A stretch of DNA of 39,067 bases, taken from contig JANYBV010000043.1 in the NCBI GenBank assembly GCA_025360605.1, positions 1-39,067 of the forward strand. The letters run 5' to 3'. The position numbers were made by a program, and so were the translations under genes. The notes under the pieces were generated by a model, which made no database searches, was not told the DNA's origin, and was given only the letters and a program-made list of their open reading frames with translations. This document shows positions 27,043 through 39,067 of the stretch, in pieces (position 1 is the stretch's first letter; every line of letters starts with the position of its first letter). The DNA is from Alphaproteobacteria bacterium (GTDB taxonomy: Bacteria; Pseudomonadota; Alphaproteobacteria; Rickettsiales; SXRF01).

Positions 27043-27621
27043 ATGAACAATATTAAAAAAGCATCGTTGCTGGCTACAGTGTGCGTGATGCTCGTTCCAG
27101 CCGTTTCTTTCGCTGCTGGCGCAAGCTTCCGTGACGTAGTTAAAGATGCTCGCGGTAACGTCGTAGTAAGCACCAACGGCAATTGCGTTGAAACCCAATG
27201 GGAAAGCTCAAGCAATCAGTGCGGCGCTAAAAAACATGGTGTCGCTTCACGCCTCAGCAAAGAAGAACGTACAGTGTATTTTGACTTCAACAAATCAACA
27301 CTGAACGCTAAAGAAAAAGCTAAACTGGATGAAGTCAGCAAAATCATTGTTGATTCCAAAGAAGTTGCCAGCGTTGATATCGTTGGTTACACCGACATGA
27401 TCGGCAAATCCAGCTACAACAAAAAACTCTCCGTAAAACGCGCTCACACCGTTAAGTCGTTTCTCGCTGCTCGCGGCCTGAAAACGAAAAACGTTCGCGT
27501 TGAAGGCCTCGGTGAATCCAACTCGGTCACCAAGTGCGATGCTAAGATGGATCGTAAAGACCTCATCGCTTGCCTCGCTGCTGACCGCCGCGTTGAAATC
27601 GAACTCAACGTGAAGCAATAA
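27043..27621 (+). CDS. OmpA-family outer-membrane/peptidoglycan-binding protein
   Basis: From ATG 27043 (AAAGGA at the right distance; 27037 is in frame but too close) the protein has 192 residues. A signal peptide (about 1-24) is followed by a short region with two cysteines (GNCVETQW and NQCGAKK), then an OmpA C-terminal domain (about 80-192): YFDFNKSTLN, DIVGYTDMIGKSSYN, LSVKRAHTVKSFL, and a second cysteine pair. This domain binds diaminopimelate in peptidoglycan. There is no room for a beta-barrel, so it is a soluble periplasmic or loosely anchored protein. Followed by a strong terminator. Confidence 0.9.
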   Translation: MNNIKKASLLATVCVMLVPAVSFAAGASFRDVVKDARGNVVVSTNGNCVETQWESSSNQCGAKKHGVASRLSKEERTVYFDFNKSTLNAKEKAKLDEVSKIIVDSKEVASVDIVGYTDMIGKSSYNKKLSVKRAHTVKSFLAARGLKTKNVRVEGLGESNSVTKCDAKMDRKDLIACLAADRRVEIELNVKQ

Positions 27622-27646
27622 TCGTTTCACGATACGACTAAAGAGA

Positions 27647-27674
27647 GGGCTCCGGTTTCTGGAGCCCTTTTTTT
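27647..27674 (+). terminator. Rho-independent terminator after the OmpA-type gene
   Basis: A perfect 7-base stem GGGCTCC / GGAGCCC with a 7-base loop is followed at once by seven T. Confidence 0.92.
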
Positions 27675-27750
27675 ATTCCGCACGTCAGCGCCCCCTCTAT
27701 TACACCCCACTATTGCTGGTACGAAATGCAATTCCCCCCACTAATTGATG

Positions 27751-28691: not shown

Positions 28692-30395
28692 ATGTCATGG
28701 TTCAATAATCAAAGAATACTACTCAAATTAATGATGTTGGTGGCGCTTATGTCGGCCATTAGCATTTTCTTGGCGGGTGTGGGTATTCATAGCCTCGCAA
28801 CACTCGATTCCAAAGCCAATCACATGGAAGAGTCAGCGCAGGAAGCACTGGAAGCTGGTAATCTCAGGCTGAGTTTATCAAACATTGATGAACTAAAGTT
28901 TCACATTGTGGCTGATCCTAGCACTAAATCCCTCGAAGAATCATATAAGTCTATAGAAGAACAAAAGACCCTGTTCAACAACTCCATAGCAACGCTCGAA
29001 AAAACTGCTGATGATTCTCAACATGAGAAATTAGAAAAAATTAAGGCTAATTTAGCTGCCTATATCTTAGCTTTGGATGAAACCATCAAGACTGCATCTT
29101 CCATTAAAGATTTCAGCCTTTCCGAAGATCAAGCAAAGATCAAGGCAGCTGCTCATAGCAGCGATGATGAATCCGATGCCCTTGATAAAGTAGTGAGTGA
29201 ATTTTCAGATGATTCCAAGAAAAATGTATCCGCACTCTCAGATGAAATAACTACCTTATACGAGCAAATCTCAAAATTGATGATGGTTGTAGCGGCAGTG
29301 GGTACGTTGGCAGGGCTGGGAATAGGCTTTGCACTTGCGCGATTTGGTATTGCAAACCCCATTACCGCGATTGTTGCGCTTTTACAAAAGCTAGCTGAAG
29401 GTATATTAGATATAGATATATCTGGTACGGATCGTAAAGATGAAGTGGGAGATATTGCGAAAACAGCACGGATATTCAAAGATAATGCCCTTGAAAGACG
29501 GCGCATGGAAGCGCAGGAAAAAGTGGAAGTACAACGCAAACTGGATCGTCAGGAGCGCGTTGATAAGTTGGTAAGCGATTTTGATATTGCTTCTTCAGCT
29601 GCGGTAAATACTGTTGCATCGGCTGCCACAGAGTTATCACAAACAGCAGCAGATATGAGTCGGGTTGCTACCCAAACCAACCAACAAGCGGTCGAAGTAG
29701 CCGCGGCTTCTAATCAAACCTCTGGTACAGTACAAACGGTTGCTGCTGCCGCAGAGGAAATGTCTTCTTCCGTAAAGGAAATTTCCAGTCAAGTTTCTAA
29801 ATCCAACAGTAATATTCGCGAGGCCTTGGAAGAAACTAAAAGTGCTAACGCTATTTCTATGCAAATGTTGGAAGCGGCTCGCTCCATTACCTCAGTGACT
29901 GAGCTTATCGAAAACATTGCGGCTCAGATTAATCTCCTTGCGCTGAATGCAACGATTGAATCTGCCCGTGCAGGTGATGCAGGCAAAGGATTTGCTGTGG
30001 TGGCTAGTGAAGTAAAAAGTCTTGCTGGTCAAACGACCAAAGCAACAGTAGATATTCGTCAGCAACTTGATAATCTTGGACAGATGGCTGAAAATGTTGC
30101 GGCGGCGCTTGTGAAATTGAGCATCTCAGTGGAAAAAGTTAATGAAACATCTGGTAGTATTGCCGCTGCTGTAGAGGAACAGACGGCGGTTACACAAGAA
30201 ATCGCCACGAACATGAATACTACTGCCTCTGCAGTAGATCAGATAAATAATAATATTGGTGGCATTCAGAAATCTACCGAAACAACTTCTGCTGCAACTC
30301 AGCAAATATTATCAGCATCGGGTATGTTGTCACAACAGGCCGAAGACCTCAATATGCAGGTCAGAGCCTTCCTTGATTCAATCAAAGCGGCCTAG
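28692..30395 (+). CDS. Methyl-accepting chemotaxis protein
   Basis: From ATG 28692 (AAGGAG five bases upstream; an in-frame TTG at 28647 is rejected) the receptor has 567 residues. A first span (about 10-32) and a second (about 193-215) enclose a helical, acidic and lysine-rich sensor region of the four-helix-bundle kind. HAMP follows (about 216-268), then a long coiled coil with the signalling hairpin tip [30 protein letters not shown] (shown in part: [21 protein letters not shown]). No C-terminal CheR-tethering pentapeptide is seen. The protein binds CheA/CheW; the ligand is unknown. Base composition is richer in A and T than in the neighbouring genes, hinting at later acquisition. Confidence 0.93.
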
Positions 30396-30535
30396 AAGAG
30401 CGTGTATGTAAATGGCGAACATCTTTGAGCTGAAATGGAAGAACCACTCTTCCCAAAACCTATCGCCATTCATTTAACAGCCAGTGCAATACTTCACCAG
30501 CATTAAGCATCGGATTACAAATATTTAATACGCAC

Positions 30536-30569
30536 AAAAAAGCCGCTGCCAAATAAATGATAGCGGCTT
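30536..30569 (-). terminator. Terminator for malate synthase (minus strand)
   Basis: The stem AAGCCGCT / AGCGGCTT (30540-30569) has a 14-base loop. Read on the minus strand it is followed by a run of six T (plus-strand A run 30536-30541), so it should end transcripts of the aceB gene. The rest of 30396-30677 shows no gene. Confidence 0.7.
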
Positions 30570-30618
30570 CTTATGTCTTTAGTGACAGGTGTGGTCAGAA
30601 TATGGAACTCTGCCGCCT

Positions 30619-30663
30619 ATCACTTATACCCCCGCCGTCACCAACGGGGGGTTTTTAGTGATA
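30619..30663 (+). terminator. Extended inverted repeat / terminator facing right
   Basis: CCCCCG ... CGGGGG around a 10-base loop is followed by five T on the plus strand (30652-30656). Outer arms TATCACT (30619-30625) and AGTGATA (30657-30663) extend the symmetry. It can terminate the chemoreceptor transcript and may also act on the opposite strand. Confidence 0.6.
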
Positions 30664-30677
30664 CATAGTCGTTCTGA

Positions 30678-32261
30678 CTAGTGAATCAGGTGATAGCCAG
30701 GAAGCGTCAGGAACTCCGTGAATGCTTTCGGACTTACCAGCGAGGTCAGCAGCTCACCCGCACGCTCATACGGCAGACCACTTGCAGGAAGTTTTTTCAG
30801 TTCCTCACCCAGCAGTGTTGTATACAGTTCCAGCGTCACCTTGCGGCCATCGTCCAGCTTTCCACCGTCATGGTGAATCCACTGCCAGATCTGCGAACGG
30901 GCGATTTCGGCGGTGGCGGCATCTTCCATCAGGTTGAAGATCGGCACACAGCCAACACCGGTCAGCCATGAGGCAAGGTACTGAACAGACGCGCTGATAT
31001 TGTTACGCAATCCCGCTTCGGTAATCGTACCTGCCGGAATGGCCAGCAGGTCAGACGCGGTGGCGGTAAAATCGCCGAGTGGACGGGTAAGCTGGTTGGG
31101 GCCCTTCATCAGGCGGTCGAAGACTTCCATAGCCACGGGAACAAGCCCCGGATGCGCTACCCATGTACCGTCATGGCCGTCACCCGCTTCACGTTCCTTA
31201 TCGGCGCGCACCATGGTAAATGCCTTGGTGTTGGCCGCCTCATCCCCTTTAACGGGAATATAGGCCGACATGCCGCCCATAGCGAACGCACCGCGCTTGT
31301 GGCAGGTCCTGATGAGCAGCAGGGAATAGGAGCGCAGAAAGTGCGTGGTCATCGTCACCTGCGCGCGGTCCGGCAGCACGAAATCGGCACGCTGGCTGAA
31401 TTTTTTGATAAAGCTGAAAATATAGTCCCAGCGGCCGCAATTGAGGCCCACGCAATAGTCACGCAACGTATAGAGGATTTCTTCCATTTCAAAGGCAGCA
31501 ACAATGGTTTCGATCAGCACGGTGGCTTTAATCGTGCCCTTGCCAAGGCCAAGTGAATTTTCCGAAAAGGTAAAAATATCAGCCCAGAGTTGCGCCTCTT
31601 CGTGGCTTTCGAGCTTCGGTAAATAGAAATACGGCCCCAGACCACGTGCCAGTAATTTTTTGGCGTTGAGGTAAAAATAGATACCGAAATCTACCAATGC
31701 ACCCGCCACCTGCCTGCCGTCGATGAGCATGTGTTTTTCTTCCAGATGCCAGCCGCGCGGACGGACAATGAGGGTCGCGATGGTGCTGTTGAGCGTATAC
31801 GATTTGCCTTCGGGACTGGTGTAACTGATCGTGCCGTCTACATAGTCACGCAGGTTGATCTGGCCGTCCATCACCGACTGCCATGTCGGGGTAAGGGAAT
31901 CCTCAAAATCAGCCATGAACACCTTTGCACCGGAATTCAGTGCGTTAATAATCATCTTGCGTTCCACCGGACCGGTGATTTCCACTCGGCGGTCCTGCAA
32001 TGCGGCCGGAATCGGCGCGACTTTCCATTCCGCTTGGTGGATGGACGGATTCGGGGGAAGGAAATCCGGTAATTCACCGGCATCCAGGCGCTTCTGGCGT
32101 TCGGCGCGTTTGGCGAGCAGGGCGTTGCGCTGCGCGGTAAAGCGTCCGGCGAGGTCGGCAATAAACGCCTGCACCTCGGGGGTGAGTACGGCAGCGTATT
32201 CTTTGGTGATCGGAGCGGTGAAGGTGACGGGGCTGGTCATCACGCGTGCGGTATCAGGCAT
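30678..32261 (-). CDS. aceB: Malate synthase A
   Basis: Malate synthase condenses glyoxylate with acetyl-CoA in the glyoxylate shunt. The 527-residue protein is the A isoform in length (near 530). Motifs include [30 protein letters not shown] with the catalytic arginine, [36 protein letters not shown] and GGMSAYIP. A Shine-Dalgarno AAGGA lies eight bases before the ATG. Isocitrate lyase, the usual partner, is not in the window. A growth mode on acetate, fatty acids or similar two-carbon sources is implied. Confidence 0.96.
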
Positions 32262-34483: not shown

Positions 34484-35386
34484 TTAGTTAAAACGGAACC
34501 TCATGATACAACCTGGGGAGTTACCACCCGTTGTAACACCACGGTTATAAGTGTCAGTGGATGCACTACCGCTACCGCCGGTGGTCGTACAATCGCCCGC
34601 CGCCGCTGACGCTGGGGTCGCAGTGCTCCACGAAGCCGCGTCCGCTAATGGTGTTGAGCTAGCCGCACCAGTGGTACCATGCGCCTGCACGATACCGGTT
34701 TCTGGCATGCCGTCATCCAACTTGATGTCCATGTTGTAGGCTTCGATAGGGGTAAGGTTGGTACTCAGCGAATAAATACCGGTTGTAACCGCTATACCGC
34801 CAATACCGGCAATGGTCCAGTAGTTGATGCTGTTCAACGAACCCGCTGTTACATAGTTACCACGGCCCAGACGTGCCGCTGGCAACACTGCCGAAACGGC
34901 CGTTGCCGCCGCACCCGGAAGAGCCGCCACAAACGTATTGTTGGTGTTTGTGGTAAAGTTACCGTCCATAAGGTTGGCTGTCGACAGATCGTTCCACAAG
35001 CCACCGGCTTCCTGAGTGAACGTACCACTCATCACCGTACCGGCGTTTGCCCCCTGAATCAGGCCGTTACCATCGCCCAGACCTACCGTACCGGCACGAG
35101 CAGCAAACCCGAAGGCCGCAGCAGCGTCAGACGTTAAATCGCCTGGGATACCGTTATACTTACTACGGAAAGTGTTGACCGCCGAGTTGTACTTTTCAAT
35201 CTGACCTACGGTGGCACGAATTTCTGCCGCACGGATCAGATCCTGACCGACGAGAATACCACCCACGATAAGACCAATAATAACCAGTACAATCGACAAT
35301 TCGATCAGGGTAAAGCCCTTATCTCGTCTGGACTGGCTCAACACAGCCTTCCCTGAGGTTTCTTCATTTGTTTGTTGTAGTTCCAT
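34484..35386 (-). CDS. Type IV pilin-like protein (copy 1, promoter-distal)
   Basis: The 300-residue prepilin has a long charged leader of 24 residues ending KG, then the class III signal GFTLIELSIVLV: cleavage at G24/F25, with the conserved Glu at position 5 of the mature protein (E29). One N-terminal helix (about 25-80) is followed by a glycine-, threonine- and alanine-rich globular domain with a C-terminal cysteine pair (GDCTTT and GCIMRFRFN). Start fixed by AGGAG eight bases upstream. The assembly machinery (PilB, PilC, PilQ, PilD) is not in the window. Composition rich in T, S and N suits O-glycosylation. Confidence 0.88.
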   Translation of the reverse strand: MELQQTNEETSGKAVLSQSRRDKGFTLIELSIVLVIIGLIVGGILVGQDLIRAAEIRATVGQIEKYNSAVNTFRSKYNGIPGDLTSDAAAAFGFAARAGTVGLGDGNGLIQGANAGTVMSGTFTQEAGGLWNDLSTANLMDGNFTTNTNNTFVAALPGAAATAVSAVLPAARLGRGNYVTAGSLNSINYWTIAGIGGIAVTTGIYSLSTNLTPIEAYNMDIKLDDGMPETGIVQAHGTTGAASSTPLADAASWSTATPASAAAGDCTTTGGSGSASTDTYNRGVTTGGNSPGCIMRFRFN

Positions 35387-35416: not shown

Positions 35417-36265
35417 TTAATTGAAACGGAACTGCAGCGCGCACGAACCATCGTTGCCGCCGGTGGCCGCTACACGGTTATACGTTGCAGTCGCAGCAAT
35501 GGTGCCGTTCGTACAGGTATTCGCAGCAGCACCAGCCGCAATACTGGCCGCTACGTTGACACCGGTATAAAGCCTCGCCTGAACGATACCCGTACCTGGA
35601 AGACCGTCATCCAGCTTGATATCCATGTTGTAAGCCTGAATAGGGGTCAACCCGACGTTGTTATAGGTATAGGCCGGAGCCGTGGTCAATGTTGCTACAG
35701 CTACTGTCTGATAGTAGTTGATACCGTTCACCGCATAGACAAGGAAGGAGTTGTTCGGTGTCGTTTTGGTTTGTGGAAACGATTTCGACGGTGTATTAAC
35801 CGTCGCCGTTACTACACCAGTGGCTGGAGCAATCAATGCGTCAGCACTGCTCACACCGAGCGATCCGTCAATTAAGTTGGCATCGGTTAAATGCCTCCAG
35901 AACATCAGGCACTCTCCGATTGGAGTGGTTACAGCACCCGATGCGCCACATTCGATCAGGCCGTTACCGTCCTGATGCCCTGCGGTACCCGCCAGCGTTG
36001 TTTCGGAATACAACCCGAAAGCACCCGCCTGCGTCGAGGTGATGTCACCTGGTAGTGCGTTATATTTAGTGCGGAAGGTGTTGACGGCTGAGTTGTATTT
36101 TTCGACCTGAGCCACGGTGGCGCGAATTTCCGCCGCCTTGATCAGATCTTGCCCAACCAGAATACCTCCAACGATTAGCCCAATGATGACCAGCACAATC
36201 GATAACTCGATGAGTGTGAAGCCACCCTCTTGGATCTTTTTATTATGTTTTTTAGGACTCTCCAT
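35417..36265 (-). CDS. Type IV pilin-like protein (copy 2, promoter-proximal)
   Basis: From ATG 36265 (AGGAG seven bases upstream; a frame from 36298 is rejected) the prepilin has 282 residues, leader of 15 and processing at G15/F16 with E20 as the mature Glu5. The first 65 mature residues are nearly identical to those of copy 1, then the globular part diverges; both end in QFRFN/RFRFN. Cysteines occur at ECG, GECL, NTCTN and GSCAL. The two genes lie 30 bases apart and form one unit. They are most likely tandem duplicates with diversified surface domains. Confidence 0.88.
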   Translation of the reverse strand: MESPKKHNKKIQEGGFTLIELSIVLVIIGLIVGGILVGQDLIKAAEIRATVAQVEKYNSAVNTFRTKYNALPGDITSTQAGAFGLYSETTLAGTAGHQDGNGLIECGASGAVTTPIGECLMFWRHLTDANLIDGSLGVSSADALIAPATGVVTATVNTPSKSFPQTKTTPNNSFLVYAVNGINYYQTVAVATLTTAPAYTYNNVGLTPIQAYNMDIKLDDGLPGTGIVQARLYTGVNVAASIAAGAAANTCTNGTIAATATYNRVAATGGNDGSCALQFRFN

Positions 36266-36751
36266 ACATATTCTCCTAAGGTGTTTCTTTCGTTTCATGA
36301 CTTTTGTTGTGTTCGCATTTGTCTCTATGCTTATCTAAAACAATTACTTTCGTATTAATTAGAAACAATTTTATTTAAATTCGCTTGAACTTTGATTTAA
36401 ATTACGTCTAACAGTTCCTATCCTGCCATTTAAAGAGGTGTTGCAGCCACTTATGTTTCGATGATTACAAAATGAGTACCGATTTTCAGGACGATAGGGA
36501 ATAATAGTTACCAATTGGTTACCAGAAACAGCTTTTGTTTTTGTTTTGAGCGAGGTGTTGGCAGGAATTCATATGCCAGCGACTTCTCATTTTAGTCGCG
36601 TAACAAAGTAATCACTTATTGATTTGTAATTATGTTATTTTAATACAACAAAATTCGTTGCTTTTTTGATGAAAAATATTTTTTAGCACGTGACATTTAT
36701 GCCACACGCATTAAAGCGGCAAACACCTAAAACGACTACTTATTTTGCTAA
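36266..36751. other. AT-rich intergenic region upstream of the pilins
   Basis: No gene is seen. It should hold the pilin promoter (minus strand) and the 3' end of the DUF1013 transcript. Visible features are the 10-base palindrome ACCAATTGGT (36510-36519) inside a GTTACC direct repeat, and a hairpin GCGACT / AGTCGC (36579-36599). Base composition is much lower in GC than the neighbouring genes. Confidence 0.5.
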
Positions 36752-37441: not shown

Positions 37442-38452
37442 ATGGCAAATACACAAAAATCCATTTCCCTTGGTTTACAAGGAGGCGGCGTACACGCGGC
37501 CTTCGGATGGGGCGTGATTGACCAGTTGCTGGCCGACGGACGTCTGCGAATTGACGCGCTCAGCGGCACCAGCAGCGGCGCAATGATGGCGGTGGTCATG
37601 GCGCAGGGCATGAAAGACGGTGGTGCCGAAGGCGCGCGCGAAGCCCTCAAATCCTTCTGGAAAAAAGTCAGCGTCGTATCGGCGATGCTGCCGCTGCGGA
37701 TGAAAGTGGTCGACAAGTTTCTCGGTCATGTCGGGCTGGATTTATCACCCACGACGATGGCGCTGGATGTGATTACGCGTATTTTTTCCCCCTACCAGTT
37801 CAATCTTTTCGACATCAATCCGCTGCGCGGCATTGTTGAAGAGCTGGTGGATTTTGACGCACTGAATAAAACATCTCCCCTCGGCCTTTATATTAATGCC
37901 ACCCATGCGCGCACCGGAAGGGGCAAAATTTTCGACGCGAAAGACGTATCGCTCGATGCCGTCATGGCATCCGCGTGCCTGCCGTATATGTTCAAGACGG
38001 TAGAAGTGGACGGCGAACCCTACTGGGAAGGCAGTTTTTCCGGATGCCCCGCGCTGGCACCACTCATCAATAACGGCCACTGCCCCGATATTCTGGTGGT
38101 GCAGATTCATCCGACGAATGTGGAAGAAGTGCCCACCCACGCCGCCGACATTCTCGACCGCGCCACCGAGATGAGTTTTAATTCCATGCTGCACATGGAG
38201 CTGAAATCCATCGCGCTGTACAATCAGATGATACGGCTTGCCAAGCTCGACCAGAAAGAAATTTTCATCCACCGCATCGAATCCGAAGACATGCTGGCAA
38301 GCCTTGGCCGTTCCAGCAAAATGAACGCGGACTGGGATTTTTTGGTGTATTTACATGACCTCGGCGTGCAAGCCGCCACCGACTGGCTGGAACAGAATTT
38401 TGACCTGATCGGCAAAAGCTCGTCCTACGACATGGACGCAATGGCCGCCTGA
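37442..38452 (+). CDS. Patatin-like phospholipase family protein
   Basis: The 336-residue protein has the patatin oxyanion motif LGLQGGGVHAAFGWG (10-24) and the nucleophile elbow GTSSG with S44. The second dyad motif normally reads DGG or DGA; here it is YWEGSFSGCPALAPL, so glutamate E196 stands in for the catalytic aspartate. These enzymes hydrolyse acyl esters of phospholipids or poly(3-hydroxybutyrate). The substitution leaves activity uncertain. No signal peptide, so cytoplasmic. No good ribosome site is visible. Divergent from the DUF1013 gene. Confidence 0.88.
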   Translation: MANTQKSISLGLQGGGVHAAFGWGVIDQLLADGRLRIDALSGTSSGAMMAVVMAQGMKDGGAEGAREALKSFWKKVSVVSAMLPLRMKVVDKFLGHVGLDLSPTTMALDVITRIFSPYQFNLFDINPLRGIVEELVDFDALNKTSPLGLYINATHARTGRGKIFDAKDVSLDAVMASACLPYMFKTVEVDGEPYWEGSFSGCPALAPLINNGHCPDILVVQIHPTNVEEVPTHAADILDRATEMSFNSMLHMELKSIALYNQMIRLAKLDQKEIFIHRIESEDMLASLGRSSKMNADWDFLVYLHDLGVQAATDWLEQNFDLIGKSSSYDMDAMAA

Positions 38453-38625
38453 CACGCCGGAATGCGGGTCGGTTTTTCTTTTGTATTTATACTTTACGCC
38501 TTATAAAATCATTGTATTTCAGATGTTTTTATTGATTCCTGTCACAAAAAATTAACAAATTACACACGCCTTTTATGGTAGAATCAAGGTGTTGCTAGGG
38601 TTTTTTGAGAAATCGAAAAACTATT

Positions 38626-38710
38626 GGGTAGACAACTAGGGAAAGCTATCGCTAACCCCTACCCACACGCAACTGGATGCTCGTACAATAGTGTACAGCC
38701 TCCTAAGGAA
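38626..38710 (+). promoter_or_regulatory. Structured 5' leader, candidate regulatory RNA
   Basis: Two strong foldings share one strand: GGGTAG (38626-38631) can pair with CTACCC (38659-38664), or TAGGG (38637-38641) can pair with CCCTA (38657-38661) above an AGC-TATC-GCT tip. Then comes a second hairpin (38675-38703) of 10 base pairs with one mismatch, one bulged C and a 6-base loop. AAGGAA follows directly, about ten bases before an ATG at 38720. A TAGAAT at 38579-38584 may be the -10 box. No known riboswitch class is recognised. Confidence 0.45.
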
Positions 38711-38719
38711 GCAAGTCTC

Positions 38720-38947
38720 ATGGCTCTGCATCTGTCACAAGTCGGCAACAGCGAAGTCAAGTCGGACTACGGCAACATCGAAGGCAAAAGCAGTCACTTT
38801 CGGGTGTTCGTCGAAGCCATCGTCGCGAAGACCGTCGAAGTCAACGATACGGAAGCCCCCAAGGTCGTCCGTACCGAGGCCATCAACGCCCTCGCCGACC
38901 GCGTCCGAGAAGCCTTCGTCAAGCAGATTGAAGTGGCTATAGTTTAG
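38720..38947 (+). CDS. Hypothetical small protein, possibly cut by an insertion sequence
   Basis: From ATG 38720 the ORF has 75 residues; a longer frame from 38624 would run through the structured leader and is not favoured. The protein is not recognised. It has a polar N-terminus (HLSQVGNSEVKSDYG) and a C-terminal amphipathic helix (EAINALADRVREAFVKQ). Codon use is rich in GTC, CGT and CGA-type choices compared with the AT-rich leader. The C-terminus lies where the IS3-type element seems to start, so the true gene may have been longer and its last residues may be supplied by the element. Confidence 0.5.
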   Translation: MALHLSQVGNSEVKSDYGNIEGKSSHFRVFVEAIVAKTVEVNDTEAPKVVRTEAINALADRVREAFVKQIEVAIV

Positions 38948-39067
38948 CGGACAGTGTGCTTGAGCGATACTGAAGGAGCTAAGAGCCAATGCCTGAGAAT
39001 ATAAATACCAAGAAGAAATTGACGTTTTATTCATCTGAGTTCAAGTCGTCTGCGATAAAGCTGGCGT
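38934..39067 (+). mobile_element. Left end of an IS3-family insertion sequence (runs off window)
   Basis: A TGG-type start near 38934 is followed by GCGGACAGTG, recalling the GGACAG found in terminal repeats of several IS3-family elements, then by a ribosome site and a transposase OrfA start. The exact boundary is a guess because the right end is outside the window. Confidence 0.45.
38989..39067 (+). CDS. IS3-type transposase OrfA, N-terminal fragment (continues past window)
   Basis: ATG 38989 opens MPENINTKKKLTFYSSEF followed by KSSAIKLA. The pattern K-(R/K)-x-(F/Y)-(S/T)-x-EFK-x-x-A-(V/I)-x-L is the start of the transposase_8 helix-turn-helix domain of IS3-family OrfA. AAGGAG (38973-38978) lies ten bases upstream. 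Only 26 codons are inside the window, so intactness of the element cannot be judged. Confidence 0.7.
   Translation, partial: MPENINTKKKLTFYSSEFKSSAIKLA

Follow-up and report, generated by a model that had tools for sequence, protein, structure and literature searches.

The DNA in front of the apparent small protein at the right end of the window (the whole contig C26, 39067 bases, from a genome of 2.68 Mb in 57 contigs) is best read as the structured 5′ leader of a probably foreign orphan gene, which lies behind a patatin gene and was broken by an IS3-type insertion sequence (IS); the probability of this reading is put at about 0.75. Downstream of the patatin gene lies this probably foreign gene, preceded by an untranslated 5′ leader of ~130 nt, and an IS3-type IS has landed in its 70th codon. 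Because the assembly breaks in this multicopy IS, the window goes no further, which gives the ORF the appearance of a complete protein of 75 residues. What had been taken for a small protein at a contig end is therefore corrected to the stump of a frame cut by a multicopy IS. The features concerned are as follows.

37442 to 38452, + strand: patatin-like phospholipase gene, complete (PF01734, E 2.1e-20)
38456 to 38473, + strand: weak terminator-like hairpin followed by a T tail (one hit; expectation from shuffles 0.8)
38552 to 38579, + strand: weak sigma-70-like site TTAACA-16-TATGGT, 9/12 (2 in the region, 0.7 expected in shuffles)
38586 to 38703, + strand: structured leader (z −3.98, 1 of 500 shuffles as good)
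38599 to 38622, + strand: hairpin 1, GGUUUUUUGA/UCGAAAAACU (pairing 0.92-1.0; z −4.36)
38625 to 38665, + strand: hairpin 2, GGGUAG 38626-38631 with CUACCC 38659-38664 and, nested, GGG 38639-38641 with CCC 38656-38658
38675 to 38703, + strand: hairpin 3 (pairing 0.97-1.0, innermost pair 0.76; z −3.30)
38705 to 38709, + strand: ribosome binding site AAGGA, from the sequence
38720 to 38928, + strand: native 5′ part of the interrupted gene, 69 codons and 2 bases (ORF reading and IS-end alignment)
38929 to 39067, + strand: left end of the IS3-type IS, running off the contig (common to 7 other contig ends)

The insertion sequence and the end of the reading frame

Comparison of the last 508 bases of the window with its own genome gave eight places, the window and seven others. 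The seven share only the last 139-146 bases, with 99-100% identity, and all of them are located at contig ends with different flanks. The eight contig ends align identically from TGAAGTGGCTATAG, the first common base being 38929. Since they are identical from this base onwards and different before it, the native piece extends from 38720 to 38928, and the ORF represents only the 5′ portion of a frame that the IS interrupts in codon 70. The first-pass annotation had described an unknown protein of 75 residues; only 69 of its codons are native, and its last residues and the stop codon TAG (38945-38947) come from the left end of the IS. The gene, we infer, once continued beyond the IS.

Members of the IS3 family are marked by TG...CA ends, imperfect terminal inverted repeats, a 3′ rve_2, target duplications of 3-4 bp and an orfA/orfB pair with a programmed frameshift. 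A related end, TGATGTGGCAACAG, is present at six other contig ends and encodes the end of a transposase, rve_2 (PF13333, E 7e-5, 23.3 bits with a cut-off of 22), which taken alone is no proof of the IS3 family. The terminal inverted repeats (left TGAAGTGGC..., right TGATGTGGC...) have the TG..CA form and are imperfect, with 21/27 positions matching by eye. In these respects the element resembles the IS3 family; four pairs of ends also carry putative 3-bp duplications. It differs in that its orfA-like piece, which by eye starts at 38989 and has 26 visible residues, matches no Pfam family, and the element is read from its ends alone. The left and right ends are taken as the two termini of one putative IS3-type element, at which the assembly broke off.

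The 8 × 6 comparisons of left with right ends yielded five exact triplet matches. Four of the pairs are uncontradicted (C25-C56, C24 start-C57, C42-C16 and C33-C18); the fifth, which joins the window to C17 through the triplet GAT, is contradicted. Two further pairs, C17-C23 and C12-C32, each differ at a single triplet position; in both of them the triplet base beside the right IS end is G and that of the left copy is T. PMC11708052 names two causes for the absence of target duplications: recombination of one IS copy with another, and deletions adjacent to the element.

Despite the GAT match, C17 was rejected as the right flank of the window's copy, because C17 and C23 each carry half of a single outer-membrane-like gene; of 11 homologues listed, 7 were usable, and all 7 match both halves. 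The IS copy between the starts of C17 and C23 splits this gene beside ATP-synthase-like ORFs (by eye). The other candidate, C12, had been suggested by gene order; it was also rejected, as its flank continues in frame into the csrA flank on C32, over 132 codons. A small ORF is thereby interrupted by the IS copy between the end of C12 and the start of C32, and it continues in frame into csrA (PF02599). The longest open frames over the 8 × 6 joins single out no partner for the window: its longest join, 354 codons with C57, is beaten by the join between the start of C24 and C57 (417 codons, with an exact GTT). Among the 57 contigs, the smallest of which has 2001 bases, no right flank turned up for the window's copy or for the one at the end of C24. 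That the right flank of the window's copy is missing counts against the interrupted-gene view, as does the variation in gene order 3′ of the patatin gene among relatives, which is described below.

Codon usage and relatives of the protein

In the native frame Val is encoded by GTC in 10/11 codons, compared with 27/197 in seven ORFs of the window, and GC3 is 0.77, compared with 0.37-0.67; both values are drawn from 69 codons only. They give the frame a foreign look, and the orphan gene is probably foreign. An imperfect direct repeat of 18 nt (89%) is located inside the ORF at 38743-38760 and 38770-38787, the copies lying 27 nt apart and encoding GNSEVKS and GNIEGKS.

The protein has no detectable relatives in the collections searched. 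Viral and genome contigs contained none, in a search that starts from exact 8-residue words and reaches no further than close relatives. Plasmids and phages gave nothing up to E 10, an additional phage search having used a 35-residue part of the ORF, and PDB sequences, Pfam and NCBIfam were likewise negative up to E 10. In whole genomes, matches were obtained in 7/90 at E ≤ 1 and, at E ≤ 0.01, in 2/385 genomes of the class and in 2/398 of the phylum, with the own genome included each time and the three sets overlapping. The match in G707 has 26% identity and two in-frame stops, and that in G030, from the search at E ≤ 1, is ParB-like by eye. The phage protein phrog_9419 was rejected as a relative (E 0.006 over 30/64 positions); it has matches in 3/289 genomes including the own, of which the other two are a frame with an internal stop and an ArsR-like regulator by eye. 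As no homologue was accepted in related genomes, phages, plasmids or viral and genome contigs, the case for a real gene is made by the ribosome binding site, the codon bias and the open frame. A single-sequence AlphaFold model of the ORF is poor (pLDDT 65).

One of the distant resemblances would make the ORF the start of a trigger-factor-like protein that has the C-terminal part only, the rest of it lying behind the IS. The best non-self matches of the search at E ≤ 1 and of that in the class fall at the same place in trigger factors (G043, E 0.0015; G201, 0.003; also G045, 0.04, and G015, 0.31), those in G043, G045 and G015 being confirmed by a Trigger_C check and that in G201 by eye. Residues 19-68 of the ORF align weakly to positions 234-283 of a profile of 30 trigger factors, the stretch between the PPIase and the C-terminal domain, with 13.8 bits (E 7.7e-7 if a single comparison is counted); none of 1000 shuffles exceeded 7.5 bits, and the reversed ORF reached 1.7 bits. 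However, the family was chosen after the fact among tens of thousands, and the best of the 1000 shuffles already has E 6.2e-5, which means that the E-values of the profile are optimistic. For these two reasons the resemblance is treated as a lead only. The ORF lacks the N-terminal part and most of the PPIase part of a trigger factor and matches neither Pfam nor NCBIfam up to E 10, the aligned stretch crosses a domain border, pairwise BLASTP aligns just 31 residues, and the poor structural model and the ParB-like match in G030 also speak against this assignment. A trigger-factor origin is accordingly considered quite improbable.

Fold of the leader

The patatin gene has matches in 17/19 genomes including the own, with paralogues among them. 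It is followed in the 3′ direction by the weak terminator-like hairpin, an A+T-rich stretch, the weak promoter-like site, the leader, AAGGA and the ATG. An alternative −10 element, TAGAAT at 38579-38584, can be read in the sequence, and the leader transcript would start near 38586.

The leader (38586-38703) folds at −40.3 kcal/mol, compared with −26.2 ± 3.6 kcal/mol for its shuffles (n=500, 1 as good), and for 38588-38722 z is −3.0 (1/200 shuffles). The comparison of folding energy with shuffled sequence, which had been proposed as a check, therefore comes out better than chance, with z from −3 to −4. The sequence elements on which the structure had been built, GGGTAG (38626-38631), TAGGG (38637-38641), CCCCTACCC (38656-38664) and the ATG at 38720, are all present. 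In hairpin 2 the pair probabilities are 0.95-1.0, apart from the outermost U-A pair with 0.78, and z is −3.19 for 38626-38665. In folds up to 38703, hairpins 1 and 2 are enclosed by a junction whose closing helix joins GUUGC (38591-38595) to GCAAC (38669-38673). A single base separates hairpin 3 from AAGGA at 38705, so that the long hairpin described as ending at the ribosome binding site is borne out. These results support a stable structured RNA ahead of the translation start.

The whole window provides a yardstick for this fold. In a scan of both strands with 30 shuffles per window of 137 nt, z ≤ −3 was obtained in 8/390 such windows, one of the eight overlapping the leader. It counts against the leader reading that two other sites fold more unusually (z −7.9 and −4.9). 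The strongest fold of the scan, at ~30531-30667 on the − strand (−59.4 kcal/mol, 30 shuffles), sits between a chemotaxis-receptor-like ORF ending at 30395 and an ORF on the opposite strand at 30678-32261, which is malate-synthase-like by eye; it is perhaps a terminator. The second strongest lies at ~27601-27737 on the + strand.

The yardstick also bears on a rival view, in which the ORF is no real gene and the leader is intergenic DNA that folds by chance. Such a view would agree with the frequency of z ≤ −3 in the scan, with the lack of homologues of both ORF and leader, and with the fact that the frame is open upstream of the ATG too, over 112 codons in all. It is nevertheless unlikely, given that AAGGA lies at the proper distance from the ATG, that GC3 is 0.77 with a strong codon bias over the 69 codons, and that z is below −3 for each of the three hairpins of the leader taken separately.

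Alternative pairings and access to the start site

The layout had first been described as two mutually exclusive helices sharing one strand. This does not hold: in the ensemble of 38586-38760, GGGUAG:CUACCC (0.99-1.0) and GGG:CCC (0.95) coexist, nested in one hairpin. When the overlapping register UAGGG:CCCUA is imposed, the fold loses 4.0 kcal/mol, and with the pairing to the upstream UAGGG it loses 9.9 kcal/mol (both in the fold to 38703). A switch of the partner of GUUGC is a more plausible alternative fold than these UAGGG registers. Three partners are available to it, GCAAC at 38669, AGCAA at 38710, between the ribosome binding site and the AUG, and GCAAC at 38745, in the coding region. 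In the fold to the AUG the first two are nearly equal (−41.5 and −41.8 kcal/mol). In the fold to 38760 they give −51.8 and −52.1 kcal/mol and pairing with 38745-38749 gives −56.5 kcal/mol; the last wins, and the closing helix with 38669-38673 is almost absent.

The energy needed to open the start region is 6.3 kcal/mol, within the range of 2.2-8.3 kcal/mol spanned by six further ORF starts in the window, which were compared in 100-base stretches and are predicted starts without a check by other evidence. The hairpin that holds the AUG is ordinary (z −1.45). The layout would thus allow translation control, which is possible, with a start site no more buried than others. The arrangement had been regarded as that of a translation-controlling RNA; of this, a stable leader before the start is supported, and a riboswitch is not.

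The likeliest role appears to be that of a plain mRNA leader, in which the hairpins would protect the 5′ end, with access to the ribosome binding site no different from that in other genes. Exchange of the GUUGC partner might, as a weaker possibility, modulate translation. In the own genome a transcript would enter the IS, and probably no useful protein is still under the control of the leader.

Searches for relatives of the leader

Rfam gives no match at the gathering score in the window, and up to E 10 it gives three matches for 38440-39067, all far under the gathering score; the leader was accordingly rejected as a known riboswitch, and the statement that it matches no known class holds in these terms. 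It was also rejected as a repeat, its matches in the own genome being short and at chance level, and as part of the IS end, since matches of the query to the seven other IS ends begin no earlier than position 364 (window 38923). The first-pass annotation had named a leader inside the end of a mobile element as an outcome that would speak against its proposal; this applies to the end of the ORF, where the IS begins at 38929, and not to the leader.

In three genomes of the genus the leader DNA has chance-level matches only, the best non-self one covering 21 bases (E 0.046), and in both congeners the DNA is absent. A single-sequence covariance model, run over 262 genomes of the order with E ≤ 0.1 and strict filters, found one non-self match (E 0.023), which is without both central hairpins. 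Core patterns occurred in 0 and 7 stretches of viral contigs, and the covariance model found nothing in the seven. Another core pattern occurred in 38 genome and 11 viral stretches, with a best model score of 12.8 bits, in a simple repeat; inspection of these 49 stretches revealed no supported leader relative. Thus no homologous leader was accepted in these searches, one of the outcomes that had been named as refuting the proposal.

A ligand- or protein-sensing cis-regulatory RNA of an undescribed class, which would move GUUGC between its partners, has to be weighed against this background. Several observations are in line with it: a closed junction is followed by a hairpin beside the ribosome binding site, the leader folds with z of about −4, the two closing pairings in the fold to the AUG are nearly equal in energy, and no Rfam match exceeds the gathering score. 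On the other hand, the RNA is represented by a single sequence, with one weak covariance-model match lacking the central hairpins, and the core-pattern stretches are backed neither by the model nor by inspection. The start site is no more closed than those of other genes, five-base alternative pairings are common by chance, and the broken gene gives no hint of a ligand. This explanation is therefore rather improbable. Still more would have to be true for the leader to be the first member of a new cis-regulatory RNA class, in which the junction would pass GUUGC from GCAAC at 38669 to the spacer or the coding start and would control an undescribed gene family, and this is judged very improbable.

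Like the orphan riboswitch candidates that comparative genomics has revealed (PMC2864571 and PMC8632094), the leader is a structured element in a potential 5′ UTR. Those candidates are judged there on several to many representatives, on conserved positions and, where possible, on covariation, whereas here one sequence is at hand. On the scale given in PMC8632094, fewer than five representatives and a poor model make a candidate low-ranking, and the leader would rank lowest. Should relatives turn up, the fold described here can serve as the model for a covariation test.

Gene order behind the patatin gene

The gene order 3′ of the patatin gene differs between the window and its relatives. In the congener G002 a convergent acyl-CoA dehydrogenase gene directly follows the patatin gene. 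A dehydrogenase on the other strand also lies behind it in G007 and G011, after a gap of ~0.6 kb, and in G001, after ~1.2 kb. In G004 and G009 no dehydrogenase is present within 1494 bases behind the patatin gene, and the comparison with G003 covers 560 bases only. In the own genome the acyl-CoA dehydrogenase, 89% identical to that of G002, is located on C12, beside an IS end. As the gene order differs from that of both congeners, the leader and the gene sit at a site of altered order.

A further reading makes the leader and the ORF the border of a more extensive foreign insertion (an island or prophage) that follows the patatin gene. The gene order, which differs from G002, G001, G007 and G011, the absence of the leader and ORF DNA from both congeners, and the foreign codon usage all point in this direction. 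However, there is no tRNA in the window, and near the border the only repeats are the 18-nt one of the ORF and an inverted pair, which is weak (75%) and lies partly within the IS. Moreover, only ~450 bases are visible, and an IS-mediated rearrangement would look alike. A larger segment is thus conceivable, if somewhat doubtful.

Two further observations concern other parts of this genome. First, the end of C24 carries a traJ-II RNA (Rfam RF01760, 40.6 bits with a gathering score of 40, L002 800-878). An ORF near this RNA is relaxase-like by eye and is interrupted by a further copy of the window's IS; together, the RNA and the ORF are a sign of a conjugative element in the own genome. Second, two neighbouring related ORFs on the − strand of the window, at 34484-35386 and 35417-36298, have prepilin-like N-termini (FTLIELSIVLVIIGLIVGGILVGQDLI).
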